Shown: positions 1,796 through 33,666, numbered from the stretch's first letter. The stretch: DNA of 34,010 nucleotides from Paracoccaceae bacterium (GCA_003565055.1 PXDM01000383.1:1-34010); one strand, 5' to 3'. Program-made: numbers and translations. The notes: generated by a model not told the origin, from the letters alone.

Positions 1796-3211
1796 TCAGG
1801 GCAGGATATCCTTCAGGCGCAACTCCGCGATGCGTTCGACCTGGGCGCAGGCGGTGGCGAATTCGGTCTCGGTGTCGCTCTCGATGCGGGCCTGAAAGGC
1901 CGCGAGGATCGAGGTCTTGGTGTTGTCGCGCACGGCGATGATGAAGGGAAAGCCGTGTTTCGCGACATAGGCCGTGTTCAGTTGCTCGAAACTGGCGCGC
2001 TCGGCATCTGTGAGCGCATCGAGCCCGGCACTTGCCTGTTCGCCGGTCGATTCTGGCGTGAGCCGTTTGGCCGCGGCGAGTTTGCCCGCGAGGTCCGGGT
2101 GCGCGCGCAGCACCTTGAGCCGGTCGGCCTCGCTGGCGCTGCGAAAGGCGCGGGCGAGCGCATTGGCCAGCCCCGTCGCGCTGTCATGGGCGGGGCCGAG
2201 TTCCAGCGCATGGGCGCGTTCGGCGACCCAGGGCGAATGCTCGTAGATGCTGCCGAAGCTCTCGACGAATTGCGCCTGTGACATGGCGCTGGGGCGGGTG
2301 CGGCGTTGATGCGGATGCTGCGCGGCCCAATGCTGCGCGATGTCGATGCGGCGGGCGAACCAGACGCCGTCATGCGCCTGCGCGTGATCGAGGAAACGCA
2401 TCAGCGCTGCGATCTTGCCGGGACGCCCGATCAGGCGGCAATGCAGCCCGATGGAGAGCATCTTGGGCGCGCCGCTTTCGCCTTCCGCATAGAGCACGTC
2501 GAAAGCGTCCTTGAGATAGTCCTCGAAATCGCGCCCGGTGACCCAGCCCGGCGCGGTGGCGAAGCGCATGTCATTGGCTTCCAGCGTGTAGGGCAGGATC
2601 AACTGATCGCGGGGCCCGAATTCCATCCAATGCGGCAGGTCATCGTCGTATGTGTCCGAGATCCAGTCGAATTGCCCTGTCTCGGCCGCCAGTCGCACTG
2701 TGTTGACGGAACACCGCCCCGTATACCAGCCGCGCGGGGCTTCACCCACCACTTCTGCGTGCAGGCGGATCGCCTCGGCGATGGCGGCGCGTTCCTCGGC
2801 CTCCGGCATGTCGCGATGCTCGACCCATTTTAGCCCGTGGCTCGCGATTTCCCAATTGGCGGCTTTCATCGCGGCCACCTGTTCGGGATTGCGCGCAAGC
2901 GCCGAGGCCACGCCGTAGATCGTGACCGGCAGGCCGCGCCCGGTGAACAGCCGATGGAGACGCCAGAACCCGGCCCGCGCGCCGTAGTCATAGATCGATT
3001 CCATGTTCCAATGGCGCTGACCCGGCCAGGGCTGCGCACCGGGGATGTCGGAGAGGAACCCTTCCGAGGCAGCATCGCCATGCAGCAGGCAATTCTCGCC
3101 GCCCTCTTCATAATTCAGCACCAGCGAGATCGCGAGTTTCGCCCCGCCCGGCCAATCAGCATTGGGGGGCGTTGCGCCATATCCGGTCAGGTTGCGAGGG
3201 TAACGTTGCAC
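1796..3211 (-). CDS. puuE-uraD: Fused allantoinase (PuuE) / OHCU decarboxylase (UraD)
   Basis: A two-domain cytosolic enzyme of urate breakdown. Residues 1 to about 309 are a PuuE-type, polysaccharide-deacetylase-fold allantoinase (allantoin to allantoate), with N-terminal YPRNLTGYGATPP and NYEEGGE and an internal MLSIGLHCRLIGRPG. Residues about 310-471 are a UraD domain that decarboxylates OHCU to S-allantoin; it carries EHSPWVA, the HPDLAGKLA helix with the family's catalytic His, and ESTGEQASAGLDALT. The ORF track begins at 3679, but I chose the GTG at 3211: GGAGG lies six bases upstream, the PuuE N-terminus starts there, and the extension overlaps the divergent uraH gene. Total 471 residues. 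An in-frame ATG at 2284 begins the UraD part, so separate translation of that domain cannot be excluded. First gene of the operon with allA and the permease. Confidence 0.92.
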   Translation of the reverse strand: MQRYPRNLTGYGATPPNADWPGGAKLAISLVLNYEEGGENCLLHGDAASEGFLSDIPGAQPWPGQRHWNMESIYDYGARAGFWRLHRLFTGRGLPVTIYGVASALARNPEQVAAMKAANWEIASHGLKWVEHRDMPEAEERAAIAEAIRLHAEVVGEAPRGWYTGRCSVNTVRLAAETGQFDWISDTYDDDLPHWMEFGPRDQLILPYTLEANDMRFATAPGWVTGRDFEDYLKDAFDVLYAEGESGAPKMLSIGLHCRLIGRPGKIAALMRFLDHAQAHDGVWFARRIDIAQHWAAQHPHQRRTRPSAMSQAQFVESFGSIYEHSPWVAERAHALELGPAHDSATGLANALARAFRSASEADRLKVLRAHPDLAGKLAAAKRLTPESTGEQASAGLDALTDAERASFEQLNTAYVAKHGFPFIIAVRDNTKTSILAAFQARIESDTETEFATACAQVERIAELRLKDILP

Positions 3212-3373
3212 GGGCGGCCTCCGGGTTGGGATGATTATGTGATAATGCAGAATAATGATTTTCATTTTCTGGGAATTTTTGAAAGACCTCAAGCCCGTGG
3301 CGCGCGCGAAGGGCTGGATGTTTCGCGCAAGGCGCTGCAAGATCGGGCAAATCACAGCGAGCGCGGGGGCAAG
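3212..3373. promoter_or_regulatory. Divergent promoter region puuE-uraD / uraH
   Basis: A 162-base intergenic stretch between divergent genes, markedly AT-rich in its middle (about 3228-3285) against GC-rich surroundings. It contains the symmetric AATGATTTTCATT (3254-3266) and a TTTGAAAG (3278-3285). The block TGATTTTCA (3256-3264) followed by TTTGAAAG recurs in the LysR/puuD intergenic region, so this is a candidate operator for the neighbouring LysR protein. No confident -35/-10 pair was assigned. Confidence 0.5.
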
Positions 3374-3730
3374 ATGACCGGATTTCTGACGACGCATGTT
3401 CTGGATACGGCGCGGGGCGTCCCGGCGGAGGGGCTGGACGTCACGCTTTACCGGCTCGATGGCGCTGAGCGCGTGGAGCTTGCGCGGATGCGCACCAATG
3501 CTGACGGGCGCACGGACAGCCCGATCCTGCCTGCCGAGGCTTTCGCGACAGGCTGCTATGAGCTGATCTTCGCGGCGGGTGCCTATTTGCGCGCGAGCGG
3601 GCAGGCGAGGGCGGAGCCGCTGTTTCTGGACGAGGTGCCGATCCGTTTCGGCATCAGCGACCCCGAGAGCCACTATCATGTGCCGCTCCTGATCTCGCCC
3701 TTCAGCTTCTCGACCTATCGCGGCAGCTGA
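3374..3730 (+). CDS. uraH: 5-hydroxyisourate hydrolase (transthyretin-like)
   Basis: Hydrolyses 5-hydroxyisourate, the product of urate oxidation, to OHCU, which the UraD domain next door then decarboxylates. At 118 residues it has the usual length. The N-terminal family motif is LTTHVLDTARGVPAEG (His8) and the C-terminus is the diagnostic YRGS, preceded by YHVPLLISPFSFST. I start it at the ATG at 3374. The ORF track's longer version (2837) runs back through puuE on the other strand and is spurious. No signal peptide follows from this start, so it should be cytosolic. Its last 16 bases overlap the 3' end of the convergent LysR gene. Confidence 0.95.
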   Translation: MTGFLTTHVLDTARGVPAEGLDVTLYRLDGAERVELARMRTNADGRTDSPILPAEAFATGCYELIFAAGAYLRASGQARAEPLFLDEVPIRFGISDPESHYHVPLLISPFSFSTYRGS

Positions 3731-4650
3731 GCCAAGGCGGCTTCGGCCTCGGCCAGCGCGGTCTTGATCCGGGCGGCGATGAAATCGGCGAAAAGCGTCA
3801 CTTTCGGATCGCGCAAGCGGCGATGCGGGGTCAGGGCGGCGAGGGTGACAGGCTGCGGCGGTGTGGCCTCGGCGACCGGGACCAGCGTGCCGTTGAGCAG
3901 ATGGTCGGCGATCTCGAAAACCGGCTTCATCACGATCCCGCGCCCGTCGAGCGCCCAGGCGGTCAGCACATCGCCATCATCGGATTCAAACGGCCCCCTG
4001 ATCTTGAAGCGCTGCGGCCCGGTCGGGGTTTTCAGCGTCCACTGAAATTCCCGCGCGCCGGGGAAGCGCAGGTTCAGGCAGTCATGCCCGTCACGCACCA
4101 GCGCGGCCCCATCTGCAGGCCGACCACGCCGCGCAACATAGTCGGGGGCTGCGCAGAGAATGCGCGGACATTCCGCGATCACCCGCACCTTGAGCGTTGA
4201 ATCCTCCAGCGTGCCCAGATGAAAGGCCAGATCGAGCCCTTCGCCCGTGACATCAATGCTGCGATCCGACAGGCGCAGGCGCAATTCGATTTCGGGATTG
4301 GCATCCTTGAAGCCCGGCACATGCGGCGCGATCAGCCGCCGCCCGATGCCCAGCGGCGCCGCGACATAGATGATGCCGCGCGGGGTGGCCGTGGCATGGC
4401 TGAGCGCGCCTTCGGCCTCCGAGATCGCATCGAGGATTTTCAGCGCGCCCTCGTAGAACAGCTGCCCGTTCGAGGTTGGTTGCAGCGAGCGCGTCGTACG
4501 GTTGAAGAGCCGCACGCCCAGGTGCTTTTCAAGCTCCGCGACCCGCGCCGAGGCCACAGCCGGCGAGGTGCGCTGATCGCGTGCAGCCGCAGACATGCTG
4601 CCCAATTCATAGACACGCACAAACATTTGGACATTGTTCAGATAGGCCAT
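3715..4650 (-). CDS. LysR-family transcriptional regulator
   Basis: A 311-residue LysR-type regulator. Residues about 1-60 form the winged helix-turn-helix (SMSAAARDQRTSPAVASARV, then LEKHLGVRLFNRTTRSLQPT). From about residue 90 a periplasmic-binding-like effector domain follows (RGIIYVAAPLGIGRRLIAP). It is divergent from puuD with a 106-base gap and sits among urate genes, so it probably controls them and itself. Urate or a downstream intermediate is a plausible ligand, but nothing in the sequence shows this. The 3' end overlaps uraH by 16 bases. The fold is certain; the target set is inferred. Confidence 0.92.
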   Translation of the reverse strand: MAYLNNVQMFVRVYELGSMSAAARDQRTSPAVASARVAELEKHLGVRLFNRTTRSLQPTSNGQLFYEGALKILDAISEAEGALSHATATPRGIIYVAAPLGIGRRLIAPHVPGFKDANPEIELRLRLSDRSIDVTGEGLDLAFHLGTLEDSTLKVRVIAECPRILCAAPDYVARRGRPADGAALVRDGHDCLNLRFPGAREFQWTLKTPTGPQRFKIRGPFESDDGDVLTAWALDGRGIVMKPVFEIADHLLNGTLVPVAEATPPQPVTLAALTPHRRLRDPKVTLFADFIAARIKTALAEAEAALAQLPR

Positions 4651-4756
4651 AGTGATTTTCAGGCTGCATTTGAAAGTGATGGGTGTTTTCTTGAATTAAC
4701 AGAAAGCGGCGCGCTGGTATAGGCTGCCGTCATGCGCGACAAGAAAGGATAATGCG
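4651..4756. promoter_or_regulatory. Divergent LysR / puuD promoter region
   Basis: A 106-base gap between a LysR gene and its divergent neighbour, the classic place for LysR sites. An interrupted dyad TTTCA-N9-TGAAA lies at 4657-4675, immediately upstream of the LysR start. TGATTTTCA (4653-4661) and TTTGAAAG are shared with the puuE/uraH divergent region. A possible sigma-70-like promoter for puuD is TTAACA (4696-4701), 16 bases, TATAGG (4718-4723). AAAGGA eight bases before the ATG at 4757 is the ribosome site. Confidence 0.45.
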
Positions 4757-5986
4757 ATGCTGGAACTGGCCGTCTGGGGGGCGTGGGCGGAATTTGCCGT
4801 GCGCTGGTTGCATGTGATCACGGCCATCGCCTGGATCGGATCGAGCTTCTATTTCATTGCCCTCGATCTGGGCTTGCGGAAATCACCCTCACTCGCGCCC
4901 GGCGCGTCCGGGGAAGAATGGCAGGTCCATGGCGGGGGCTTCTATCACATCCAGAAATACCTGATCGCGCCGGACAAGATGCCGGATCATCTGATCTGGC
5001 ACAAATGGCAGAGCTATGTGACCTGGCTCTCGGGTTTCGCGCTGCTGGTGCTGGTCTATTATGTCGGTGCGGAATTCTATCTCATCGACCGCTCCCTTGC
5101 CGATCTGGCGGTCTGGCAAGCGGTCGCGCTCTCGGTGGCCTCGCTGTCGGTCGGCTGGCTGATCTACGATGCGCTGTGCAAATCCCGTTTCGGCGAGGAC
5201 AATACGCGCCTGATGGTGCTCCTCTTCGTGCTGCTCGTGGTCATGGCCTGGGGCTACACGCAGGTCTTCACGGGGCGGGCGGCACTCCTGCATCTGGGCG
5301 CCTTCACGGCGACGATCATGAGCGCGAATGTGTTTTTCATCATCATTCCCAATCAGAAGATCGTCGTGGCGGATCTGCGCGCAGGCCGCACCCCGGATGC
5401 GAAATACGGGAAAATCGCCAAGCAGCGCTCGACGCATAACAACTACCTGACCCTGCCGGTGCTGTTTCTGATGCTTTCCAACCATTACCCGTTGGCCTTT
5501 GCGTCGGAATTCAACTGGTTGATCGCCGGGCTGGTCTTTCTGATGGGGGTCACGATCCGGCATTTCTTCAACAGCATGCATATGGGCGAGGGGTATAAGT
5601 GGTGGACCTGGGGGGCAACGACGGCGCTTTTCGTGGCGATTGTTCTGCTCTCGACCCTCGGGCAGCCGCGCGTCACGCAGGATGATACCGCGCGCCTGCC
5701 GCTCTCGGTCGCGCGCTTTGTCGAGGATCCGCATTTCGAGGATGCCTATTGGTCCGTGGTGGGCCATTGCTCCATGTGTCACGCCGAAGAGCCGCTCTGG
5801 CCGGGGCTGCATTGGGCGCCCAAGGGCGTGGTGCTGGAAACCGAAGCGCAGGTCGCGCGAGCCGCCCAGACGATCTATCTGCAATCGGGGCTCAGCCACG
5901 CCATGCCCCCCGGCAGCACGGTCCTGATGGATGCGGAGGCGCGCCAGCAAATCGTCACATGGTATCGAAGCGCCACAGGCTCCTGA
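4757..5986 (+). CDS. puuD: Urate hydroxylase PuuD, membrane protein with C-terminal cytochrome c
   Basis: Oxidises urate to 5-hydroxyisourate at the inner membrane, passing electrons to the respiratory chain; this cofactor arrangement replaces soluble uricase. Its 409 residues consist of a multi-span N-terminal urate-oxidase membrane domain (about residues 1-305; WLHVITAIAWIGSSFYFI is the first span, and later GVTIRHFFNSMHMGEGYKWW) and a C-terminal cytochrome c domain. That domain has a single haem site, CSMCH, at about residues 338-342 and HAMPPGS as the probable distal Met region. The start is supported by AAAGGA. It is divergent from the LysR gene and is followed by a strong bidirectional terminator. 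With uraH and puuE-uraD it completes urate to allantoate. Confidence 0.93.
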   Translation: MLELAVWGAWAEFAVRWLHVITAIAWIGSSFYFIALDLGLRKSPSLAPGASGEEWQVHGGGFYHIQKYLIAPDKMPDHLIWHKWQSYVTWLSGFALLVLVYYVGAEFYLIDRSLADLAVWQAVALSVASLSVGWLIYDALCKSRFGEDNTRLMVLLFVLLVVMAWGYTQVFTGRAALLHLGAFTATIMSANVFFIIIPNQKIVVADLRAGRTPDAKYGKIAKQRSTHNNYLTLPVLFLMLSNHYPLAFASEFNWLIAGLVFLMGVTIRHFFNSMHMGEGYKWWTWGATTALFVAIVLLSTLGQPRVTQDDTARLPLSVARFVEDPHFEDAYWSVVGHCSMCHAEEPLWPGLHWAPKGVVLETEAQVARAAQTIYLQSGLSHAMPPGSTVLMDAEARQQIVTWYRSATGS

Positions 5987-8812: not shown

Positions 8813-10480
8813 GTGAGGGTGAGCAGGGAGACAGCAGCGTCGAGGACAGATATCGTTCTGGGGGATGACTGGGTCGGCCCGGGTGATGCAGTTGAAAACG
8901 AAGTGCGCGCCTCGCGTGCGCGTCGTGGTTTTCGCAGTATTTCCAGCTCACCTCTTGCGCGCAAGATCGCCCTGTTCAATCTCGTGGCGCTGGTTCTGCT
9001 GATTGTCGGGATCCTCTTCACCAATCCGGTGCGCGATTCTCTTTTGCGCCAGCAGGAGGAAACGCTTGGCGCAAATGTGCAAATCCTTGCAGCGCTTGCC
9101 GCCAATGGGCAGGCGGAGGGTCTGCGTGAGGCGCTGACGCGCGATCTTGCGATTGATGAGCGATTCGAGATCACACTTCTCGACGCCGAAGGGCAGACAA
9201 TAGACCGGGTCCGGGGGGGCGTGCGGGACGGCGCGCAACTCGCCAAACAGCGTGGCACCCCGATCAGCAACGTGCTGACTTCGATCTGGAACGCCATGAC
9301 GTCGATGACACCGATCGAGCGCGGCGAGACCTCAGTGCGCAGTTTTGACGACGTCGCGCAAGAGATGTTTGCGCGCAATCGCGACGGTGTGACGGCCAGC
9401 TACACGCATGGCGCCGGGACCGATGACATGTGGCTTGCGGCCAGTGCGCCGATCATCGTGGATGGCGCGTTTTCCGGCGCAGTGTTCTTGCGGCGCGAGT
9501 CGGATGATACAGCGCTTCTCATGCGTCAGGAGCGAGAGCAGATTTATCAGTTCTTCCTGATCGCCGTTCTGGTCTCGCTTGGATTGAGTTATGTGCTCGC
9601 CTCGACCATAGCCAATCCGCTCGCCGATCTCGCCATGGCGGCAGAGCTTGGCAAGCGCCGTGATGCGCGCAAGAATCAGCCCGGAGCGCGGGTGCGCATT
9701 CCCGATCTTTCGGGGCGCCCGGATGAGATCGGGGACCTGTCGCGGGCCATGCGCGGAATTGTCAGCGCGCTCTATGACCGGGTCGAGGCGAATGAGCAAT
9801 TCGCAGCCGATGTTGCGCATGAAATCAAGAACCCGCTCGCGTCGCTCCGATCTGCGGTCGGCAGCATGCGCATGGCCAAGCGCGAAGACCAGATTCAACG
9901 CTTGCTGGAGGTGATCGAGCATGATGTGCGCAGGCTCGACCGGCTGGTTTCCGACACGTCAAATGCGTCGCGTCTCGATGCAGAACTGGTGAAAGAAGAA
10001 CAGGAAGAATTCGATCTGGTCCTCTTGCTGAACAATCTCTGTCAGCATCTGTCGCAAGAGGCCCGCGACAAAGGCGTGGAATTCATCAAGATCCTGCCGG
10101 AAAACAAGATCATGGTGACCGGGCTGGAGGGGCGGCTGGCGCAGGTTTTCGTGAACCTGATCACCAATGCGATTTCGTTTTGCGAGGACGGCGATGCAGT
10201 GCGGGTCTGGGCCCGGCAGCGCCATGACCGGGTGCTGGTCGTGGTCGAAGATACGGGGCCGGGCATCCCCGACAATGCGCTGAAGAAAGTCTTCAAACGG
10301 TTCTATTCCGAACGGCCGGTGCAGCAATTCGGCAATCATTCGGGGCTTGGGCTCGCGATTTCCAAGCAGATCATCGAAGCGCATCAAGGTGTGATCTGGG
10401 CCGAGAATATCCGCCCCACGGATGCGGAGCCTGACAGTGCACCTCTGGGGGCGCGTTTTGTCGTGGGCCTGCCGCTCTGA
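8813..10480 (+). CDS. chvG: Sensor histidine kinase ChvG
   Basis: Inner-membrane sensor kinase partner of ChvI. It has a roughly 50-residue cytoplasmic N-terminus, TM1 at about 52-72 (IALFNLVALVLLIVGILF), a periplasmic sensor domain, TM2 at about 245-265, and a HAMP linker. The HisKA domain has phosphoacceptor His336 (ADVAHEIKNPLASLRSA). The ATPase domain has an N-box (NLITNAISF), DTGPGIP and HSGLGLAIS. Length 555 residues. The GTG start at 8813 is uncertain, since a second in-frame GTG lies at 8819 and no strong Shine-Dalgarno sequence precedes either. The stop overlaps the hprK start by one base (TGATG), so the genes are translationally coupled. Confidence 0.94.
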   Translation: MRVSRETAASRTDIVLGDDWVGPGDAVENEVRASRARRGFRSISSSPLARKIALFNLVALVLLIVGILFTNPVRDSLLRQQEETLGANVQILAALAANGQAEGLREALTRDLAIDERFEITLLDAEGQTIDRVRGGVRDGAQLAKQRGTPISNVLTSIWNAMTSMTPIERGETSVRSFDDVAQEMFARNRDGVTASYTHGAGTDDMWLAASAPIIVDGAFSGAVFLRRESDDTALLMRQEREQIYQFFLIAVLVSLGLSYVLASTIANPLADLAMAAELGKRRDARKNQPGARVRIPDLSGRPDEIGDLSRAMRGIVSALYDRVEANEQFAADVAHEIKNPLASLRSAVGSMRMAKREDQIQRLLEVIEHDVRRLDRLVSDTSNASRLDAELVKEEQEEFDLVLLLNNLCQHLSQEARDKGVEFIKILPENKIMVTGLEGRLAQVFVNLITNAISFCEDGDAVRVWARQRHDRVLVVVEDTGPGIPDNALKKVFKRFYSERPVQQFGNHSGLGLAISKQIIEAHQGVIWAENIRPTDAEPDSAPLGARFVVGLPL

Positions 10481-10950
10481 TGGCCGATTTGGGCCGCGAG
10501 TTGATCCATGGCTCCTCTGTGGCGTTCAGCACCTGCCGGGGCTGGGAAGGTATGTTGATCATTGGCAGGTCAGGCTCCGGCAAGTCGGAGTTGGCGCTGG
10601 AGCTTCTTTCCCTCGGCGCGCGGCTCATTGCGGATGATCAGACGGAGCTTTTCCGCCGTGGCACTGGCATTGCAATGCGCGCGCCCGGGCGTTTGCGCGG
10701 GATGATCGAGTTGCGCGGGATGGGGGTATTGCGCGCGGCTCAGGTTGATGAAGTCGATCTTGTTCTCGTGGTGGATATGGATGAGGAGGAAACGGAGCGA
10801 CTGCCGCATCCCCATCACTTCGCGCGGCTTGGCATCACGGTCCCCCGGCTCAGGCGTTGCACGTCACGTGTGTTCGCCGCGGGGCTGAAACACTACATCA
10901 TGGAGCGGCACAGATCGCAGGAGCATGTCCTTGGAACCCGTCAGTCCTGA
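10480..10950 (+). CDS. hprK: HPr kinase/phosphorylase, short alphaproteobacterial form
   Basis: Phosphorylates and dephosphorylates HPr on a regulatory serine, linking energy status to gene regulation. Its 156 residues correspond only to the C-terminal kinase domain; Gram-positive HprK is about 310 residues, and the short form is normal in alphaproteobacteria. It has a P-loop GRSGSGKS at 29-36, then ADDQTEL, and the HprK signature-like stretch PGRLRGMIELRGMGVL. It overlaps chvG by one base and rapZ by 26 bases. The substrate HPr, with Ser46, is encoded three genes downstream. Confidence 0.93.
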   Translation: MADLGRELIHGSSVAFSTCRGWEGMLIIGRSGSGKSELALELLSLGARLIADDQTELFRRGTGIAMRAPGRLRGMIELRGMGVLRAAQVDEVDLVLVVDMDEEETERLPHPHHFARLGITVPRLRRCTSRVFAAGLKHYIMERHRSQEHVLGTRQS

Positions 10951-11839
10951 TCAGAATCCTGCCGCGCGGCTCGTCCTGTTGACCGGGCCATCCGGCGCGG
11001 GCCGTAGCACCGCGCTCAATGTCTTCGAGGATCTGGGTTTCGAAGCCATCGACAACATGCCGATTTCGCTTGTCTCGCGTCTGGTTGCAGAACCGCTGGA
11101 GCGGCCTCTGGCGCTTGTGCTCGACCCGCGCAACCGTGACTTTTCCGTGAATGCGCTGCTCGCGCTCGTGGAACAACTCTCCGCCTCAACGCGCTTCGAC
11201 TTCGATCTGGTGTATCTCGACTGCCCGATTCCGACGCTGATCCGGCGCTATTCGGAAACGCGGCGACGCCACCCGCTGAGCCAGAGCGGGGAAGCGCGCG
11301 ACGGGATCGAGTTCGAGGCGCGCCTGTTGCGTCCGGTTCGGCTACGGGCGGATATCCTGATCGAGACGGATGGCATGACGCCGCATGATTTGCGCGATCA
11401 GATCAGGGCACAGTTTTCTATCGAAAACAGCACTGTCATGCATGTGAACGTCGTATCCTTCTCCTATCGGCGCGGCATCCCCATCGGTGTCGATCTGGTC
11501 TTTGATTGCCGGTTTCTGAGCAACCCGCATTGGCAGCCGGACCTGCGCCGACTCGATGGTCGCGATATAGCCGTGTCCGATTTCGTCACTCAGGATCCAA
11601 GATTTGCTGATTTCTTTCGGCGCGTTCAGGGGTTGGTTGAGAGTCTTTTGCCGGAATACGCGCGCGAAGGGAAAGCACAGCTCACGATTGGTTTCGGATG
11701 TACAGGCGGGCAACACAGATCGGTGGCGACCACTGATAAATTGGCGAATGCCCTTGCGCAGGCCGGGTGGCAGGTGTCTAAACGTCACAGGGAATTGGAA
11801 CGGATGGCTGCGCATATCGCAGCCCAGAGGAACGAATAG
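10925..11839 (+). CDS. rapZ: RapZ-family nucleotide-binding protein (RNase adapter)
   Basis: Member of the RapZ/YvcJ family. In enterobacteria RapZ guides RNase E to the GlmZ small RNA and senses glucosamine-6-phosphate; the alphaproteobacterial role is not established. Its 304 residues have a Walker A-like GPSGAGRST at 21-29 with Arg in place of the usual Lys, EAIDNMP, and the C-terminal-domain motif GFGCTGGQHRSV. The start at 10925 lies inside hprK (26-base overlap) with AGGAG just upstream. It sits between hprK and the PTS genes, as in other alphaproteobacteria. Confidence 0.93.
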   Translation: MSLEPVSPDQNPAARLVLLTGPSGAGRSTALNVFEDLGFEAIDNMPISLVSRLVAEPLERPLALVLDPRNRDFSVNALLALVEQLSASTRFDFDLVYLDCPIPTLIRRYSETRRRHPLSQSGEARDGIEFEARLLRPVRLRADILIETDGMTPHDLRDQIRAQFSIENSTVMHVNVVSFSYRRGIPIGVDLVFDCRFLSNPHWQPDLRRLDGRDIAVSDFVTQDPRFADFFRRVQGLVESLLPEYAREGKAQLTIGFGCTGGQHRSVATTDKLANALAQAGWQVSKRHRELERMAAHIAAQRNE

Positions 11840-25296: not shown

Positions 25297-26142
25297 TCAG
25301 TGTTTCGCTGCCCAACTCAGCGAGGCGCGCCTGCGGGTGACAAATTCCCCGAGCATCCCGAGCACCAGCAATCCCATTCCGAAATAGACCGGATACATGA
25401 GCGATGTATTGACGGGATTGTAGTTGATGAAGGCGAAACAGCGCGCCTGATCAATCGCGTGGAAGAGTGGGGTCCAGAGGAAATAGGTGAGATAGGTATC
25501 GGGCAGGCTGTTGGCGAGAAAGAACTTCCCCGATGCGACCATGTTGAGGCGTGAAATCAACTGGGTCAGGAGCTTGCTGGCTCCAGGCATCCACGGCTTG
25601 AGCGCGTAGAGCGCAACACCAATCGCCACCCCTGCGAACCAGACTGCGAGCAGCATCGCGAAAGCGCCGACAGGATTGTAGATTTCAACGGGCGTCCAGA
25701 TCGCATGATAAAGAAACAGGATCACCAGCACAGTCAGTACCTGAATATACAATTCCCCAAGCGCGGCGCCCCCGATGGCGACAAGCGCGTTCATCGGTCG
25801 GTGTTTCATCATGTTCGAGGTCGGACCTTCAGCGCCAGCCACCTGACCGATGACCTTGATATGGGCCATGAACAGGAACACACCGCTCATCAGGTAGATC
25901 AGCGTATCGCCGCGGATCGCCGAGCCGCGCATGCCTGCGAAAACAAAAATCAGCATGAACACGGCCACCAGCATCATGGTCTGTGCGATGTTCAGCATCA
26001 GACCGATGATCGCGTTGCCGTGATTCTTGCGGACATTGCGCACCGCGTGATGGAAAATCAGCTCCATCGTATGCAGGACCATCATAAAGGTCGATCCAAG
26101 TGTCGCAGAGCGTTGCATTCCAGGCCTTTCGCCTTGAGCCAT
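25297..26142 (-). CDS. ABC-2 type permease, KpsM-like polysaccharide exporter
   Basis: A 281-residue inner-membrane permease of the ABC-2 family with about six spans, resembling KpsM and other capsule or O-antigen export permeases (ELIFHHAVRNVRKNHGNAIIG at the N-terminus, SRLNMVASGKFFLANSLPDTYL, and LWTPLFHAIDQARCFAF near the end). It would need a partner ATPase (KpsT-like), which is not in the window. The start is uncertain: the ATG at 26142 is used, but the ATG at 26118 has a better ribosome site (GAAAGG). The longer ORF-track start at 26325 overlaps the divergent cysQ gene and is unlikely. Its position beside cysQ and glycosyltransferases supports glycan export. Confidence 0.82.
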   Translation of the reverse strand: MAQGERPGMQRSATLGSTFMMVLHTMELIFHHAVRNVRKNHGNAIIGLMLNIAQTMMLVAVFMLIFVFAGMRGSAIRGDTLIYLMSGVFLFMAHIKVIGQVAGAEGPTSNMMKHRPMNALVAIGGAALGELYIQVLTVLVILFLYHAIWTPVEIYNPVGAFAMLLAVWFAGVAIGVALYALKPWMPGASKLLTQLISRLNMVASGKFFLANSLPDTYLTYFLWTPLFHAIDQARCFAFINYNPVNTSLMYPVYFGMGLLVLGMLGEFVTRRRASLSWAAKH

Positions 26143-26251
26143 GATTGGTCGTTCGATAAGTGTCTCCGCAAAAATAAAGCGAAACGCGATAAGGATCAAT
26201 GAACCTCGTCCACGACGGATCGAGGATTTTAGCAACAAGGACAGAAACAAG
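26143..26251. promoter_or_regulatory. kpsM-like / cysQ divergent gap
   Basis: A 109-base region between divergent starts. It is AT-rich relative to its flanks and probably holds both promoters. AAGGA lies about 12 bases before the cysQ ATG. No operator was recognised. Confidence 0.3.
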
Positions 26252-27052
26252 ATGCAGGAAATTGATCGCAGCCTTCTGGAGCAGGTCTTCCGCAAGCTCG
26301 CGCTCGCGGCCGGGGCCGCGATCATGGAAGTCTATGAAAGTCCTGATTTCGAAGTGCGGTTCAAAGGTGATGACAGCCCATTGACCGAAGCTGACGAGCT
26401 TGCCGACCGGATCATAAGCGAGGGTTTGCGCGCGGCCTTTCCCGGTGTCGCCCTCGTGACGGAAGAGCAGAGCGCAAGCCATGATCTGCAGGCCGCGCAG
26501 TTCCTGATCGTTGACCCGCTCGACGGGACCAAGGAATTCGTCCAGCGCAGAGGCGATTTCACTGTGAATATCGCACTTGTCGAAAACGGTGTGCCAGTGG
26601 CAGGCGTGGTCTATGCCCCAGCCAAGGGGCGTATGTTCTATACCACGGCAAGCGGCGCTGCCGTCGAGGAACATGGCCCCTTCGCGCCCGATACACCTGG
26701 CGCGCAGCATATCCTGCAGATGCGTGCGCCTGATCCGGCAGCGCTGGTCGTTGTTGCGTCGAAGTCGCATCGCGATGCGGCCACGGATGCGTTCATCGCA
26801 CGCTTTCCGGTGGCAGAAGCGCGAAGCGCGGGCTCCTCGCTGAAATTCTGCCTCCTCGCGGCAGGGGAAGCGGATTTCTACCCGCGTCTGGGCCGGACGA
26901 TGGAATGGGACACGGCGGCGGGAGATGCGGTTTTGCGCGCCGCGGGCGGGGAAGTGCTCGACTTCGACACGCATGAAACGCTGCGGTATGGAAAGCCCGG
27001 ATATGGGAATCCGTTTTTCCTTGCACGCCATCCGGATATCTCGCTGTCCTGA
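26252..27052 (+). CDS. cysQ: 3'(2'),5'-bisphosphate nucleotidase CysQ
   Basis: Dephosphorylates 3'-phosphoadenosine 5'-phosphate (PAP) to AMP, clearing the inhibitory by-product of PAPS-using reductases and sulfotransferases. Its 266 residues belong to the inositol-phosphatase superfamily: DSPLTEADELADRII, VTEEQS, the metal-binding IVDPLDGTKEFVQRRGDFT, and EWDTAAGDAVLRAAGG. I start at the ATG at 26252 (MQEIDRSLLEQVF); the ORF-track start at 26141 reads intergenic DNA. A PAPS-type sulfotransferase lies about 4 kb downstream on the same strand, which fits a sulfation-linked role. Confidence 0.93.
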   Translation: MQEIDRSLLEQVFRKLALAAGAAIMEVYESPDFEVRFKGDDSPLTEADELADRIISEGLRAAFPGVALVTEEQSASHDLQAAQFLIVDPLDGTKEFVQRRGDFTVNIALVENGVPVAGVVYAPAKGRMFYTTASGAAVEEHGPFAPDTPGAQHILQMRAPDPAALVVVASKSHRDAATDAFIARFPVAEARSAGSSLKFCLLAAGEADFYPRLGRTMEWDTAAGDAVLRAAGGEVLDFDTHETLRYGKPGYGNPFFLARHPDISLS

Positions 27053-27197
27053 TGTTGTGCGTTAGGTTCTATGTGTAAGGAGTTGTAATTCATATACAGT
27101 ATCGCATCTTTGTCCTGACTTGATGCCGTGTTTTTCGCACTTGCGCCGCGTCCATGTTCGGGGTCTGTTACATATGGGCCACCCGACCGGAGCGTAG
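27053..27197. promoter_or_regulatory. cysQ / first glycosyltransferase intergenic region
   Basis: A 145-base gap, AT-richer than its surroundings, between two plus-strand genes. It probably contains the glycosyltransferase promoter. GGAG lies about seven bases before the ATG at 27198. No terminator after cysQ is evident. Confidence 0.3.
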
Positions 27198-28226
27198 ATG
27201 TTCACCCCGTTGCCTGAGCGACAAGAGCGCTGGTTTGACTTTCGCATGCGCTGGAAACGGCGCAGGTTGCGCGCGCGGGCGATCAGCAAGGCGGGAGAGT
27301 TGCGCCTCTTGAAGCGCGGGGCCTGGGGGCGGGGCGCGATCCTGTTGTTTTGCACCATCCGCAACGAAATCGAGCGCATCGACTGGTTCCTTGCGCATTA
27401 TCGCAAGCTGGGCGTGCAGCATTTCATCTTCGTGGACAATGACAGCACCGATGGCACACGCGCGCGGCTCTTGAGCGCGCCGGATTGCACTGTCTATGCC
27501 ACGCAGAAAAGCTACAAAGCGTCACGCTTTGGCATGGACTGGATCAACTGGCTGATGCTGCGGCATGCGCATGGGCATTGGTGCGTTGTGGCTGATGCTG
27601 ATGAATTGCTCATCTATCCGCATTGGGAAACGCGCGCGCTCCCGGCGCTGACACGCTGGCTGGAGCGCGAAGGGCGGATGGTTCTGCCCGCCATGATGCT
27701 TGAGCTTTACCCGAAAGGCCCGCTCGACCACGCGCCGTGTCACCCCGGCATGGACCCGCTGGAGGCGCTGCGCTGGTTCGATGCCGGGAATTACACGATC
27801 ACGCACAGGCCCTTGCTGGACTGCCTGCTCATTCAGGGCGGCCCGCGCGCGCGCCATTTCTTTCGCGACGCGCCCAACCGCGCACCGACCCTGACCAAAC
27901 TGCCGCTGATCAAATGGTCGTTTCACAATACTTGGGTCAATTCCACGCATGCGATCCTGCCGCGCCGCCTCAACCGGTTTTTTGCCGAGGATGGGGGGGA
28001 GGCGATTTCGGGCCTGATCCTGCACACGAAATTTCTGGCAACCGTGGTCGAAAAGGCCGCGATCGAGAAAGCGCGCGGCCAGCATTTCGGGAATGCCCCG
28101 GTCTTCGACAGCTATTATGACCAGCTTGCACGCGCGCCCGACCTCTGGTCGCCGCAATCGACCGAGTTTCTCGGATGGGAACAACTCGAGGAACTCGGCC
28201 TCATGTCGCGCGGGGGCTGGGCGTGA
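27198..28226 (+). CDS. Family 2-like glycosyltransferase, paralogue A
   Basis: A 342-residue cytosolic glycosyltransferase with a GT-A fold (glyco_tranf_2_4 type). A basic N-terminal arm (WKRRRLRARAISKAG) precedes the catalytic domain: LLFCTIRNEIERIDWFL, FVDNDSTDGTR, and the nucleotide-sugar/metal DxD at 133-135 in VVADADELLIYPHW. Acceptor-side motifs are MLELYPKGPLD and RWFDAGNYT. It ends LGLMSRGGWA. The next gene is a clear paralogue with the same order of motifs. Sugar and acceptor are unknown; the neighbourhood points to a surface polysaccharide. Confidence 0.9.
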   Translation: MFTPLPERQERWFDFRMRWKRRRLRARAISKAGELRLLKRGAWGRGAILLFCTIRNEIERIDWFLAHYRKLGVQHFIFVDNDSTDGTRARLLSAPDCTVYATQKSYKASRFGMDWINWLMLRHAHGHWCVVADADELLIYPHWETRALPALTRWLEREGRMVLPAMMLELYPKGPLDHAPCHPGMDPLEALRWFDAGNYTITHRPLLDCLLIQGGPRARHFFRDAPNRAPTLTKLPLIKWSFHNTWVNSTHAILPRRLNRFFAEDGGEAISGLILHTKFLATVVEKAAIEKARGQHFGNAPVFDSYYDQLARAPDLWSPQSTEFLGWEQLEELGLMSRGGWA

Positions 28227-28409
28227 TGCGGGGCGATCAGTTTCATTAGGCGCGATAACGCGACAATAACTCTTTCGCGCGAAGATTGTTGCAATTCTTG
28301 CATGGCTTAGGCAATGCTGGCGCGCAAAGGTTGAGCAGAGTGACTGGCGGCGGGACAAGTGGCATAACCGCCTACGAGGACCGCGCTTAGGCCAGATACA
28401 GGCAGTGTT
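28227..28409. other. Gap between the two paralogous glycosyltransferases
   Basis: A 183-base spacer between tandem paralogues on one strand. I found no ORF with family character, no terminator and no convincing promoter in it. The ribosome site before the downstream ATG at 28410 is weak. Confidence 0.3.
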
Positions 28410-29420
28410 ATGGGTGTGTTAAGACAGTTCAGACTGAGGGCGGAGCGTCATGCCAAGCTCTTGCGGTGCTTGCGCAAAAGCGCCTCTCTGCGGACTGTGC
28501 AGAACCGGACCGATGCAATCCACCCGCGCGATGTGCTGATTTTCTCGACGCTGCGCAATGAAATGCTGCGGCTGCCGTATTTTCTCGACTATTATCGCGC
28601 GCAAGGCGTGCGGCATTTCCTGATGGTCGATAATGGCTCCAGCGACGGGAGCGCAGAGTATCTGGCGCAGCAGCGCGATGTCTCGCTCTGGTCGACCCAG
28701 GCGAGCTACAAGCGCGCGAGTTTCGGGATCGACTGGATCAATCATCTGCTCTGGCTCTATGGGGCCGGGCGCTGGGTGCTGGTGGTCGATGTCGATGAGT
28801 TCTTCGTCTACCCGTTCTGCGACACACGCCCGATCACCGCGCTGACTGATTGGCTGGAAAGTCAGGGGCGGCGGTCCTTCGGGGCGATGCTGCTCGATAT
28901 GTATCCCAAAGGCCCGGTCACCGCGCATCCTTACCGCGAGGGGCAGAATCCGTTCGAGATCGCGCGCTGGTTCGATGCGGGCAATTACAGCATCAAACGC
29001 AACCCGGTCTATCATGATCTGTGGATTCAGGGTGGAGTGCGCCAGAGGGTGGTCATGGCAGAGGCGCCTTGGAATGCGCCCGCGCTCAACAAGATCCCGC
29101 TGGTGCAGTGGTCGCGCAAATACGCCTATCTCAGCTCGACCCATATGCTGCTGCCGCGCGGGCTCAACCGCGTCTATGACGAAAGCGGGGGGGAGGCCGC
29201 GTCGGGTGTGCTCCTGCATGCGAAATTCCTCGATACGGTCATCGGCAAGGCGCAGGAAGAGTTGGAGCGGCGCGAACATTACGCGGGCAGCCGTGAATAT
29301 CGCGCCTATGAGGACAGTCTGAGCCGTAATCAGGACCTCTGGTGCGAATGGTCCACGGAATATATCAACTGGCGGCAGTTGGAAATTCTGGGGCTGATGT
29401 CGAAAGGAGACTGGGCATGA
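28410..29420 (+). CDS. Family 2-like glycosyltransferase, paralogue B
   Basis: A 336-residue paralogue of the preceding gene. Motifs in matching order are LIFSTLRNEMLRLPYFLDYY, MVDNGSSDGSAEYL, SYKRASFGIDWINHLLWL, the DxD at 127-129 in VVDVDEFFVYPF, MLLDMYPKGP, RWFDAGNYSI, and the terminal LGLMSKGDWA. The N-terminal arm differs from paralogue A, so the two may act on different acceptors. The stop overlaps the start of the Branch-type glycosyltransferase (ATGA), so the two are translationally coupled. Confidence 0.9.
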   Translation: MGVLRQFRLRAERHAKLLRCLRKSASLRTVQNRTDAIHPRDVLIFSTLRNEMLRLPYFLDYYRAQGVRHFLMVDNGSSDGSAEYLAQQRDVSLWSTQASYKRASFGIDWINHLLWLYGAGRWVLVVDVDEFFVYPFCDTRPITALTDWLESQGRRSFGAMLLDMYPKGPVTAHPYREGQNPFEIARWFDAGNYSIKRNPVYHDLWIQGGVRQRVVMAEAPWNAPALNKIPLVQWSRKYAYLSSTHMLLPRGLNRVYDESGGEAASGVLLHAKFLDTVIGKAQEELERREHYAGSREYRAYEDSLSRNQDLWCEWSTEYINWRQLEILGLMSKGDWA

Positions 29421-31090
29421 GCGCGCCTGCGGCCCCTGTGGGAATAGTCATGCTGTGCCACACAGCTTTGCGCCGCGCGGCACAGGTCGCGCGCTTCTGG
29501 CTCGCGGCGGGCTGCCCGGTGGTCATGCATATCGACCGTGCTGTGGCCGAGGCTGAGGTGCAGGCGCTCAAGGCGGATCTGGGGCCGCAGCCGCTTCTGC
29601 GCTTCTCCGAGCGCCATCGCTGCGCCTGGGGCTCCTGGCATCTGATCACGGCCACGCAGGATGCGGCCACGCTTCTGCTGCACGAGTTCCCGCAGGTCGG
29701 TCATGTGCTCCTGACCTCGGGCTCCTGCCTGCCGATCCGCCCCGCGCAGGATCTGATCGCGCATCTGAGCAAGCATCCCGAGACTGATTTCATCGAATCC
29801 GTTGCGATTGATCACGCGACATGGATCATGGGCGGGCTGTCGGAGGAACGCTTCACGCTTTATTTCCCCTTCGATTGGCGTCGCCAGCGCTGGGTGTTTG
29901 ATCGTTTCGTGGACCTGCAGCGCAAACTCGGTGTGCGGCGCAAGATCCCTGCGCCCCTGCGCCCGCATATGGGCTCGCAATGGTGGTGCCTCACGCGCGC
30001 GACATTGCAGGCCATCCTTTCCGACCCGGCGCGCGCGACCTATGAGCGCTTTTTCCGGCAGAACTGGATCCCTGACGAATCCTATTTCCAGACGCTCGCG
30101 CGGTTGCATGGGCGCGAGATCGAAAGCCGGTCGCTGACGCTGGTGAAATTCGACCGCCACGGGCGGCCCAATCTCTTCTATGACGACCATCTGCAACTTC
30201 TGCGGCGCTCCGATTGTTTCCTCGCGCGGAAAATCTGGCCCGAGGCGGAACGGCTCTATGCGTTCTTCCTCTCGGCGCAACCCGCGAAGCTGGAGCCTGT
30301 CGCGGCCGATCCCGCCAAGATCGACCGCTATTTTGAACTCGCCGAGAAACAGCGCCTCGATGGGCGGGCGGGGCTCTATATGCAGAGCCGCTACCCGCGC
30401 GAGACAAGTGCCAGCAGTAAATCGGCAGGCCCATATTCGGTCTTTACCGGGTTCGAGAATGTCTTCGAGAATTTTGAGTTCTGGCTTGGGCAGGTGACAG
30501 GAACCCGCGCGCATGGCCATCTTTTCGCGCCTGAGAAAGTGCAGTTTCATCGCGGGGCCAAGGTCTGGCATGGCGCAATTAGCGACAGTGCTGCGATCCG
30601 CGACTATAACCCGCGGATGTTCCTGACCAATCTGCTTTGGGCCACGCGCCCGGAGCGGCAATGCTTTCTGCACGGTCCGGGCGATGTGATGGACGGCCCG
30701 CTGGGGTGGTTCATGGCGACGGATACGAATGCGCAGATCTCGGTGATCCGGGGCGCGTGGATGCTGGGCCTGTCGCAGAGATCGCAGCCTGAACAGGAGC
30801 TGATCTCGCTGGCGGGGCAGTTGCACCGACAGGAACAGGACTGGATCGCACAGCTCAGCTCGCGCTGGGTGCTGGCGCGTATCCGTATTTTCTCGCTCGC
30901 CGAGATGATCGAAGAGCCGCGCAAGCACCTGCTTGATGCTCTGGGCGACACGGCGAGCGAGGCCGCGCTCAAGGCGCACGGTCTGCCACCCGTGATGGAT
31001 GCGACGCAGCTCGAAGGCTTCATGACGAAACTGCGCAATCAGGGCCTGCCCGCTCAGGTGCTGAAGGATTGTCAGCTCCCGGCGCGGTGA
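29417..31090 (+). CDS. Branch-type (GT14-like) glycosyltransferase with long C-terminal domain
   Basis: A 557-residue protein. About the first 260 residues resemble the Core-2/I-branching beta-1,6-N-acetylglucosaminyltransferase family (VGIVMLCHTALRRAAQVARF, VVMHIDRAVA, HVLLTSGSCLPIRP, MGSQWWCLTR and NWIPDESYFQTLA). The C-terminal half (about 300-557) has no motif I can tie to function; from memory it may match a DUF5927-type domain found in Rhodobacterales next to Branch domains. I start at the ATG at 29417, overlapping the previous stop; the ORF-track start lies within paralogue B. The sulfotransferase gene follows 14 bases downstream. A bacterial sugar donor is not implied by the family name. 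Confidence 0.85.
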   Translation: MSAPAAPVGIVMLCHTALRRAAQVARFWLAAGCPVVMHIDRAVAEAEVQALKADLGPQPLLRFSERHRCAWGSWHLITATQDAATLLLHEFPQVGHVLLTSGSCLPIRPAQDLIAHLSKHPETDFIESVAIDHATWIMGGLSEERFTLYFPFDWRRQRWVFDRFVDLQRKLGVRRKIPAPLRPHMGSQWWCLTRATLQAILSDPARATYERFFRQNWIPDESYFQTLARLHGREIESRSLTLVKFDRHGRPNLFYDDHLQLLRRSDCFLARKIWPEAERLYAFFLSAQPAKLEPVAADPAKIDRYFELAEKQRLDGRAGLYMQSRYPRETSASSKSAGPYSVFTGFENVFENFEFWLGQVTGTRAHGHLFAPEKVQFHRGAKVWHGAISDSAAIRDYNPRMFLTNLLWATRPERQCFLHGPGDVMDGPLGWFMATDTNAQISVIRGAWMLGLSQRSQPEQELISLAGQLHRQEQDWIAQLSSRWVLARIRIFSLAEMIEEPRKHLLDALGDTASEAALKAHGLPPVMDATQLEGFMTKLRNQGLPAQVLKDCQLPAR

Positions 31091-31104
31091 CAAAGAGGAA
31101 CGCA

Positions 31105-32544
31105 ATGTCTGATCTCTCCCGGTTTCGCTATTTCGTTGTGTTGGCAGAAATGCGCACGGGCTCGAACCTGTTGGAGGCCTGCCTGAACGAAATCCCCGGC
31201 CTGCGTTGCGAGGGGGAGGCGTTCAATCCGGTCTTTGTGAGCCATCCCAAGACCGACAGCCTGTTCGGCTTCGACCGGGCCACGCGCGACCGGGACCCGC
31301 TGGCGCTGCTCTCGGCCTTTGAGCGGCAGGACAGCCTGTCGGGCTTTCGCTACTTCCACGATCACGACCCGCGTGTTGTCGATGCGTTTCTGGGCGACCG
31401 GGACTGCGCGAAGATCATCCTGACGCGCAACCCGCTCGAGTCCTATGTCTCGCTGAAAATCGCGCGGGCGACGCAGCAATGGCGTCTGGGCGATGTCAAG
31501 AATCGTCGGATGGAGAAAGTTGTTTTCGATCCGGTCGAGTTCGAGACGCATCTGCGCGATTTGCAAGCCTTCCAGATCAAGGTTCAGAACCGCCTGCAAG
31601 TGACAGGTCAGACGGCATTTTATGTTGATTACGAAGATATCCAGTCGCTTGATGTGATCAATGGGCTGGCCGAGTGGCTGGGTGTTGCGGCGCGGCTTGA
31701 GGCGATGCCGAAGAAGCTCAAGCGCCAGAATCCCGAAGCGCTGGAAGACAAGGTCGTGAACCCCGAAGCCATCGCTGCGGGCATCGCGCGGCTGGATCGC
31801 TTTCACCTCTCGCGCAGTCCGAATTTCGAGCCGCGTCAGCCCGGCCTGCTCTGGGCCTTCCGTGCCTGTCAGACCGCGCCGCTGGTCTATGCGCCGCTGC
31901 CCGGCTGTTCCGAGCGTCCGGTCCTGAGCTGGATGGGGGCCGTGGATGGCGGGGCTGAGCCCTCGGAGCTGCTCTCGGGTTTCACGGCGCAAAGCTGGCG
32001 CGACTGGCAGCGCAGCCATGCCCGGCGCGTGGCCTTCACGGTGCTGCGTCATCCGCTCGCGCGCGCGCATGAGATCTTCGTGGGACAGGTCGCGCTTGGG
32101 AGTCGCGAGAATGTGCGCCGCTTCATCGAGCGCGTGCATGGGCTGAGCGTGCCGACCGAGCGCGCCGCGCTGCGCGCGCTGGATGCGCAGACGCATCGGC
32201 AGTTGTTTTTGGGCTTTCTGCAATTCGTGAAGGCCAATCTGAATGGCCAGACCGCGTTGCCGACCCGGCCCGTCTGGGCGAGCCAGTCGCGGCTGATCGA
32301 GGCGATCACCACGCAATGCCCGCTGCATCATCTGCTGCGCGAGGGGACGCTGGCCGAGGATCTGCCGCGCCTTGGCCGAGACCTCGGTCGCGACCTGCCC
32401 GCATTCGTGCCGACGCCACGGAGCGGCCCGCTCGATCTGGCGCGGATTTATGACGCGGGCGTAGAGGCGGCCTGCCGTGCGGCCTATGGGATCGACTATG
32501 AGCGTCTGGGCTTTGGCGACTGGTCAGACGAGCAGGGCGCTTGA
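31105..32544 (+). CDS. Sulfotransferase (NodH-like), two sulfotransferase-like halves
   Basis: A 479-residue cytosolic protein. The N-terminal half (about 1-245) is a PAPS-dependent sulfotransferase: the 5'-phosphosulfate loop FVVLAEMRTGSNLLEACL (Arg17-Thr18-Gly19-Ser20), FRYFHDHDPRVVDA, and the 3'-phosphate motif IILTRNPLESYVSLKIA. The C-terminal half (about 250-479) has a second motif of that type, RVAFTVLRHPLARAHEIFV, but no obvious second RTGSN-like loop, so it may be non-catalytic or acceptor-binding. I start at the ATG at 31105 with AGAGGAA upstream. It lies 14 bases after the Branch glycosyltransferase and is the last gene of that run. The target is probably the glycan made by its neighbours. 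Confidence 0.87.
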   Translation: MSDLSRFRYFVVLAEMRTGSNLLEACLNEIPGLRCEGEAFNPVFVSHPKTDSLFGFDRATRDRDPLALLSAFERQDSLSGFRYFHDHDPRVVDAFLGDRDCAKIILTRNPLESYVSLKIARATQQWRLGDVKNRRMEKVVFDPVEFETHLRDLQAFQIKVQNRLQVTGQTAFYVDYEDIQSLDVINGLAEWLGVAARLEAMPKKLKRQNPEALEDKVVNPEAIAAGIARLDRFHLSRSPNFEPRQPGLLWAFRACQTAPLVYAPLPGCSERPVLSWMGAVDGGAEPSELLSGFTAQSWRDWQRSHARRVAFTVLRHPLARAHEIFVGQVALGSRENVRRFIERVHGLSVPTERAALRALDAQTHRQLFLGFLQFVKANLNGQTALPTRPVWASQSRLIEAITTQCPLHHLLREGTLAEDLPRLGRDLGRDLPAFVPTPRSGPLDLARIYDAGVEAACRAAYGIDYERLGFGDWSDEQGA

Positions 32545-32570
32545 AAAACGGGGCCGCGCCTCACGCGGCC
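32544..32570 (-). terminator. ptsN terminator overlapping its own stop codon
   Basis: On the minus strand the hairpin GGCCGCG-TGAGG-CGCGGCC is followed by CCGTTTTT. The ptsN stop TGA lies in the loop, so the last codons form one arm. The T tract reaches the stop of the convergent sulfotransferase gene, leaving almost no free sequence. Confidence 0.7.
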
Positions 32571-33025
32571 TTGCTGGCCTCACCGCTCGACAGAATCGCG
32601 AAGAGCTTGGCGGGGTCGTCATTCGCGCGCAGTTTCTCGCAGATATGCCGGTTGCGCAGGGTGCGGGAGATGAAGGCCAACGCCTTGAGATGTTCGACCC
32701 CGGCATCGCGGGGCGCAAAAAGTGCAAAGACCAGATCGACAGGCGCTTTGTCGACCGAGCCGTAATCGAGCGGTTTTTCGAGGCGAAAGAAAACCCCAAG
32801 CACGTCGCTGATACCATCGAGACGCGCATGGGGCACTGCGACGCCATGGCCCACACCTGTTGGGCCAAGGCTCTCACGCTCCTGCAGGGCACTGATCACG
32901 GTTTCCGCGTCCAGCCCGTAGACAGTTTTCGCGGCTTCACCGACAGTCTGGAACAAGCGCTTCTTGCTGGTCGCGGATGAAATAAAGCGAACCGCCTTCG
33001 CATTCAGAAGCGTACCCATTTCCAT
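32561..33025 (-). CDS. ptsN: PTS IIA-like nitrogen-regulatory protein (EIIA-Ntr)
   Basis: A 154-residue regulatory phosphocarrier of the nitrogen PTS, controlling potassium, nitrogen and envelope functions through its phosphorylation state. Active His66 in GHGVAVPHARLDG; ERESLGPTGVG and PVDLVFALFAP are family landmarks. The start is the ATG at 33025 with GGAG nine bases upstream; a second ATG two codons on is possible. It is downstream of hpf (74-base gap), the usual order in Rhodobacterales. With HPr, HprK and EIIA(Man) in this window it completes most of a regulatory PTS; enzyme I is missing. Confidence 0.95.
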   Translation of the reverse strand: MEMGTLLNAKAVRFISSATSKKRLFQTVGEAAKTVYGLDAETVISALQERESLGPTGVGHGVAVPHARLDGISDVLGVFFRLEKPLDYGSVDKAPVDLVFALFAPRDAGVEHLKALAFISRTLRNRHICEKLRANDDPAKLFAILSSGEASKAA

Positions 33026-33099: not shown

Positions 33100-33666
33100 T
33101 TACTGCGGGTCAATCCAGCCAATATTACCGTCATCACGTCGATAGACCACATTCAACCCGCCATGGCGCTCATTGCGGAAAACCAGCACCGGCGCATGGG
33201 CCAATTCCATCTGCATCACGGCCTCACCGGCTGAAAAGGACGGGATTCGGGTCTCCATCTCTGCGATGATCATCGGCTGCAGCGACTCTGGCTCGTCCGG
33301 CACTTCGTCCTGATCGGATGCCAGAATATTATACGAAGCCTCGGCATATTCCACCGGATTGGGGCGCTCGCGATGGTGGTCTTTCAGACGCCGCTTGTAG
33401 CGTCGCAACTGCTTGTCGAGCTTCTCGCGGCAGGATTCGAACGCGGCATAGATCTCCCCGGCCTGCGCGCGCGCCGCTGCGGTCATGCCCGTCGAGAGAT
33501 GCAGCGTCGCCTCGCAGACCAGCGTATGTGCATCGCGCGAGAAAATGACGACGGCTTCGGTCGGGCGCTGCTGGTATTTCTCCACCAGCTCGCCGAATTC
33601 GGCTTTCACATGAGTTTGCAACGCTTCTCCGATATCGATCTGTTTGCCGCTTATCTGGTAGCGCAT
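33100..33666 (-). CDS. hpf: Long-form ribosome hibernation promoting factor
   Basis: A 188-residue protein that dimerises 70S ribosomes into inactive 100S particles in stationary phase. The N-terminal S30AE/YfiA domain (about 1-100) begins MRYQISGKQIDIGEALQTHV. The C-terminal dimerisation domain (about 130-188) includes PMIIAEMETRIPSFSAGEAVMQME and ends DGNIGWIDPQ. Its length marks the long form, which carries its own dimerisation domain. GAGGAG seven bases before the ATG is a strong ribosome site. It lies between lptB and ptsN. Confidence 0.95.
   Translation of the reverse strand: MRYQISGKQIDIGEALQTHVKAEFGELVEKYQQRPTEAVVIFSRDAHTLVCEATLHLSTGMTAAARAQAGEIYAAFESCREKLDKQLRRYKRRLKDHHRERPNPVEYAEASYNILASDQDEVPDEPESLQPMIIAEMETRIPSFSAGEAVMQMELAHAPVLVFRNERHGGLNVVYRRDDGNIGWIDPQ

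Follow-up and report, generated by a model that had tools for sequence, protein, structure and literature searches.

Does a run of six genes between positions 25,297 and 32,544 of a 34,010-nucleotide stretch of DNA from a Paracoccaceae bacterium (the whole of which we call the window) encode a single pathway for a sulfated surface glycan, and is the CysQ phosphatase among them dedicated to clearing the PAP that the sulfotransferase would release? A preliminary description of this DNA, made from the sequence alone, had proposed both. The window lies on contig C137 of a genome assembly of 557 contigs that is 87% complete and 7% contaminated; among named genera, Natronohydrobacter, Roseinatronobacter and Roseibaca match it most closely. 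Open reading frames together with family and profile matches revealed all six genes where they had been described, with refined starts (Table 1).

Table 1 Features of the locus and its boundary genes, in window coordinates
Feature	Position	Strand	Support or remark
KpsM/VexB-like ABC-2 polysaccharide export permease	25297..26142	-	281 aa, best start 26142, without an adjacent ATPase gene
CysQ, 3'(2'),5'-bisphosphate nucleotidase (PAP phosphatase)	26252..27052	+	ATG start 26252; TIGR01331
Gap, site of galU (~0.9 kb) in closest relatives	27053..27197	.	alignment with L091
GT2a, PF13704 glycosyltransferase	27198..28226	+	PF13704 1.2e-31
GT2b, PF13704 glycosyltransferase	28410..29420	+	PF13704 6.4e-31
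Branch-type glycosyltransferase (GT14/xylosyltransferase fold), C-terminal DUF5927	29417..31090	+	PF02485 4e-17, PF19349 1e-92
Two-domain PAPS sulfotransferase (ST)	31105..32544	+	ATG start 31105; profile and predicted fold
ptsN, conserved boundary gene	32561..33025	-	PF00359, TIGR01419
hpf, ribosome hibernation factor, boundary gene	33100..33666	-	TIGR00741, PF16321

Gene layout and protein families

The same-strand run that had been reported from the first glycosyltransferase onward holds, but CysQ upstream already lies on the plus strand too. The last three genes are almost gapless, as had been described: the Branch start and the GT2b stop share 4 bp (ATGA), and the ST start follows the Branch end by 14 bp, suggesting that GT2b–Branch–ST is probably one transcription unit. 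Because gaps of 145 bp (CysQ–GT2a) and 183 bp (GT2a–GT2b) lie further 5′, we limit this proposal to the last three genes. A promoter scan found 0 against 1.6 expected by chance and is uninformative, and a weak terminator-like site follows CysQ (27048–27066), of a kind that is common by chance in this DNA. The interval between CysQ and GT2a lacks galU in this assembly. In the relatives L091, L095, L097 and L100 galU is present at this position, and the L091 sequence aligns on both sides of its galU while the gap itself does not align.

The KpsM-like protein matched the NCBIfam models VexB (1.7e-11) and KpsM (2.9e-8) with scores that fall far short of either equivalog cut-off, and it had no Pfam match. 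CysQ scored 253.4 bits against the TIGR01331 equivalog, above its cut-off of 228.8. The two paralogous glycosyltransferases share 46% identity; GT2b was found in 60/60 genera of the first neighbourhood set, and the GT2a position is occupied, judging by synteny, by a GT4 in many genera. The Branch enzyme carries a PF02485 domain, and its predicted GT14-like fold matches human xylosyltransferase 1 and C2GnT-L; its acidic motif WIPDESY, with the residues PDE, is invariant.

Searched as a single sequence, ST gave a sub-threshold Pfam match (PF13469, 18 bits). An alignment of ST from 42 genera across the family revealed that RTGSN (residues 17–21), E38, R108 and S116 are invariant; from the general features of the sulfotransferase fold, we take RTGSN to be the 5′-phosphosulfate-binding loop and R108…S116 to be the 3′-phosphate-binding motif, so that both PAPS-binding elements would be conserved throughout. 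The ST profile matched the 'LPS sulfotransferase NodH' (PDB 9vki, 3.8e-12, residues 7–153), and the predicted structure (pLDDT 90) adopts a sulfotransferase fold whose best PDB matches are 3rnl and 1tex (Stf0), at E-values that are modest because the model holds two domains. These are an N-terminal Stf0/NodH-like domain (about residues 1–245) and a C-terminal Sulfotransfer_2-like domain (about 248–479). PF03567 matches 26/42 whole ST proteins, and matches the C-terminal half of some relatives above cut-off; this half keeps an R-H-P motif and lacks the conserved loop residues, which suggests a second sulfotransferase-fold domain that is probably inactive. Profile comparison did not support the C-terminal half as a clear homolog of the N-terminal one, despite the Pfam Sulfotransfer_2 match in relatives, and did not support DUF5927 as a clear homolog of the ST N-terminal domain. 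We infer that ST is a PAPS-dependent sulfotransferase that acts on a glycan.

Conservation and loss across the Rhodobacteraceae

Of the 298 Rhodobacteraceae genera, 247 (83%) encode ST, and so do 221 of the 262 good genomes, typically with one copy per genome. Within a class-wide sample of 289 genomes, full-length ST matches were confined to its 4 Rhodobacteraceae; in 2 further genomes the match covered just the N-terminal part. Single-domain proteins related to the ST N-terminal domain are encoded in other families of the class (L239, L240).

The check that had been suggested for a joint locus, co-occurrence of all six genes across Rhodobacterales, was run on neighbourhoods from 60 genera, which were drawn from the best matches and are hence biased to close relatives, a bias that a divergent set partly offsets. 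Most of these neighbourhoods read kpsM(-) cysQ(+) ... GT2b Branch ST ptsN(-) hpf(-), and the kpsM ortholog adjoins cysQ in nearly all ST-bearing genera. The conserved block as a whole is kpsM < > cysQ, (kdsB/GT2), galU, (galE), GT, GT2, Branch, ST, ptsN, hpf: between cysQ and GT2b, other genera have a KdsB-like CMP-Kdo synthetase and/or a GT2, GalU, often GalE, and a GT4 or GT2a, names that were assigned by sequence reading rather than by family search. Gene order is also kept around divergent ST of 33–41% identity (L191–L207). The arrangement therefore exceeds chance, recurring as it does in most Rhodobacteraceae genera; ptsN is treated here as a boundary gene and probably does not belong to the pathway. 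Two records titled Cytophagaceae (L153) and Nocardioides marinus (L168) bear this Rhodobacteraceae locus, and their titles are probably wrong.

Synteny alone is weak evidence, because the unrelated ptsN and hpf are also held in conserved order, and gene losses carry more weight. Counted raw, ignoring the relatedness of genera, a Branch ortholog is present in 242/247 genera with ST versus 4/51 without (phi 0.89 on E-value counts), and a KpsM ortholog is found in only 8/51 of the ST-lacking genera. By the same raw counting, the unlinked KpsE-long is present in 38/38 ST-bearing versus 6/42 ST-lacking genera, and the KpsC/S family (PF05159) in 38/38 versus 13/42 at E<1e-25, with any match at all in 19/42 of the latter. 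Five ST-lacking genera (L173, L176–L179) have kept cysQ, galU, ptsN and hpf but have no KpsM, transferases, Branch or ST; four of the five retain kdsB and two retain galE. Two others, L174 (G057) and L175 (G172), have the whole locus except ST, with just 58–150 bp between Branch and ptsN, too little to accommodate it, and since these genera keep the locus without ST, sulfation appears to be optional. The joint pathway, which had been put forward as inference, is thus borne out to this extent: the six genes co-occur in order, and the permease, Branch and ST genes share their pattern of retention and loss with one another and with Kdo-capsule genes at other genomic sites.

Partner genes, proposed pathway and the place of CysQ

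The β-Kdo transferases KpsS and KpsC are both encoded in the same genome, on contig C138 together with an outer-membrane exporter (names taken from the same-genus copy L228). Contig C408 carries KpsE-long, which KpsT precedes in same-genus genomes, and contig C351 a fused bifunctional CysN/C with APS kinase, so that the genome would have PAPS, the Kdo linker and an exporter at its disposal. All 12 further genomes of the genus that were sampled gave KpsC/KpsS family matches. A single kps cluster is usual, although not strictly required; here the genes lie on at least three separate contigs. In 12 other genera KpsT–KpsE do not lie within ~18 kb of KpsM, and KpsT/KpsE as near neighbours of KpsM holds only in Roseibaca (~14 kb). 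Because KpsT/E are remote from KpsM and the genome contains a second KpsT–KpsE–permease set, we infer the KpsM–KpsT/E pairing by elimination. Glycan export, previously qualified by a 'perhaps', is better supported than that, but it would run through partners outside the window. The same assembly (G000, 7% contaminated) has six KpsE-type genes, on contigs C320, C365, C405, C443, C166 and C408, which probably represent mixed strains plus the second export set.

We consider it likely that the locus encodes the steps that assemble a Kdo-anchored, ABC-exported, capsule-type glycan, sulfate it and carry it across the inner membrane, and that this sulfated glycan is near-universal in Rhodobacteraceae. 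KpsS and KpsC would build a β-Kdo linker on lipid, which GT2a and GT2b (GT4 and GT2b in other genera) and the Branch enzyme would extend in the cytoplasm; ST would transfer sulfate from PAPS, the CysN/C product, to a sugar; and KpsM from the locus, with KpsT–KpsE and a VexA/KpsD-like outer-membrane protein from other contigs, would export the glycan. PAP would be removed by the general cellular CysQ, and in other genera kdsB, galU and galE of the locus would provide CMP-Kdo and UDP-hexoses. The substrate and sugar composition, chain length, sulfated position and surface location of this putatively sulfated product are presumptive. A broader proposal, which we hold to be possible but short of probable, is that the Rhodobacteraceae, a dominant marine family, have in common a sulfated, Kdo-anchored surface glycan, near-universal and so far undescribed, whose pathway is dispersed and includes a family-specific two-domain ST, and that losses of the whole set or of ST only mark lineages in which the surface charge has changed.

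The same genes might instead make a short conserved oligosaccharide, that is, a Kdo-anchored glycolipid or an LPS-core decoration and not a capsule polymer. Across genera the set of transferases (GT2b, Branch, and GT4 or GT2a) varies unusually little for a capsule locus, and one set shared by hundreds of genera favours a single fixed short structure over a variable capsule; in addition, ST resembles the LPS sulfotransferase noted above, and no polymerase-like gene was recognised in the locus. However, co-variation with KpsC/S, KpsE and the KpsM-like permease indicates an ABC capsule export route, and we regard the oligosaccharide as unlikely.

Dedication of CysQ to ST fares worse. Co-occurrence of cysQ and ST across genomes, the check set beforehand, was indeed observed: cysQ lies within reach of ST in 56/60 genera, with contig ends accounting for two of the misses, and in nearly all ST-bearing neighbourhoods it has kpsM on one side and the transferases on the other. 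A published sulfated-capsule cluster of Cobetia also has cysQ, with cysN/C and cysD (PMC11766843). However, CysQ does not occur only with ST. Its orthologs (E<1e-40) are kept in 24/30 ST-lacking genomes tested, and several ST-lacking genera retain cysQ at its old site beside kdsB/galU/ptsN. Among the 10 closest full-flank relatives, four (L094, L096, L101 and L103) have the GT2–Branch–ST cassette without CysQ or KpsM within 10 kb, and the flanks examined (L094, L103) contain unrelated genes (a mechanosensitive channel, a branched-chain amino acid transporter). CysQ moreover gave the weakest distance correlations with the other locus genes, and no PAPS-synthesis gene was found in the locus. PAP is also produced by other reactions, for example phosphopantetheine transfer, which would explain the retention of CysQ without ST. 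These patterns suggest that CysQ is probably a shared housekeeping enzyme on which ST may depend; a role as the dedicated partner of ST, as originally assigned, is not supported and seems to us improbable.

Coincidental synteny, in which unrelated neighbours were retained through slow chromosome rearrangement as the equally conserved but unrelated ptsN and hpf might suggest, is highly improbable, given that KpsM, the glycosyltransferases, Branch and ST vanish jointly while cysQ, galU, ptsN and hpf stay, that the unlinked KpsE and KpsC/S vanish too, and that the cassette moves as a unit, with the gene to the left of KpsM in the window unconserved (pyrF, 0/60 genera).

Related systems and significance

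KpsC/S and their Kdo linker are standard in ABC-dependent capsules (PMC12220298, PMC11041684). The capsule-type pathway proposed here resembles the Kps system in its KpsM-like permease, KpsE, KpsC/KpsS, outer-membrane exporter and, in many genera, KdsB-like CMP-Kdo synthetase (PMC12220298, PMC11041684), but its kps genes do not form a contiguous cluster, kpsM lies apart from kpsT/E, and a sulfotransferase is added. The sulfated capsular polysaccharide of Cobetia marina KMM 1449 has been isolated and solved by NMR, and its cluster of ~70 genes likewise contains a Kps ABC exporter, KpsS/C, glycosyltransferases, a sulfotransferase and cysQ (PMC11766843), whereas the product of the present system is predicted from its genes; in Cobetia, cysN/C and cysD lie inside the cluster and the system is that of one genus, whereas here the genes occupy several sites, PAPS synthesis is encoded elsewhere and the core is family-wide. 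In Vibrio sp. KMM 8419 a single capsule region holds kpsDME, kpsT and kpsS along with genes for sulfotransferases and glycosyltransferases, but that region is strain-restricted according to its authors' search, includes PAPS genes and lacks kpsC, in contrast to the family-wide occurrence and the presence of KpsC here (PMC11641403). Within the same bacterial family, Rhodobacter capsulatus has a surface polysaccharide, the CPS of rcc01081-01086, which its authors tied to the wza/wzb/wzc export genes and which is absent from strain 37b4 (PMC10218006). The ST N-terminal domain shares its fold and PAPS-binding motifs with the Stf0/NodH sulfotransferases (1tex, 3rnl, 9vki), from which ST differs by the extra Sulfotransfer_2-like domain without the conserved loop residues and by a full-length form found, in our sample, in Rhodobacteraceae only. 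The open-access literature that we searched contained neither a sulfated glycan locus of Rhodobacteraceae nor a family-wide version of one; sulfated Kps-type clusters are already known from Cobetia and Vibrio.

Marine waters contain Rhodobacteraceae in abundance, and these bacteria colonise algae and particles. Should nearly all genera carry the same sulfated coat, this would bear on adhesion, on recognition by phages and gene-transfer agents, on salt tolerance and on how much sulfated sugar bacteria supply to seawater. The two genera with the locus but no ST, and the several in which the whole set has been lost, offer a ready comparison.

Elsewhere in the window, positions 1796–5986 contain purine-catabolism genes, encoding a polysaccharide-deacetylase-like/OHCU decarboxylase fusion and a urate oxidase N-terminal-domain protein, and positions 8813–11839 contain a sensor histidine kinase gene followed by a RapZ gene; this regulatory group shares the window with ptsN.
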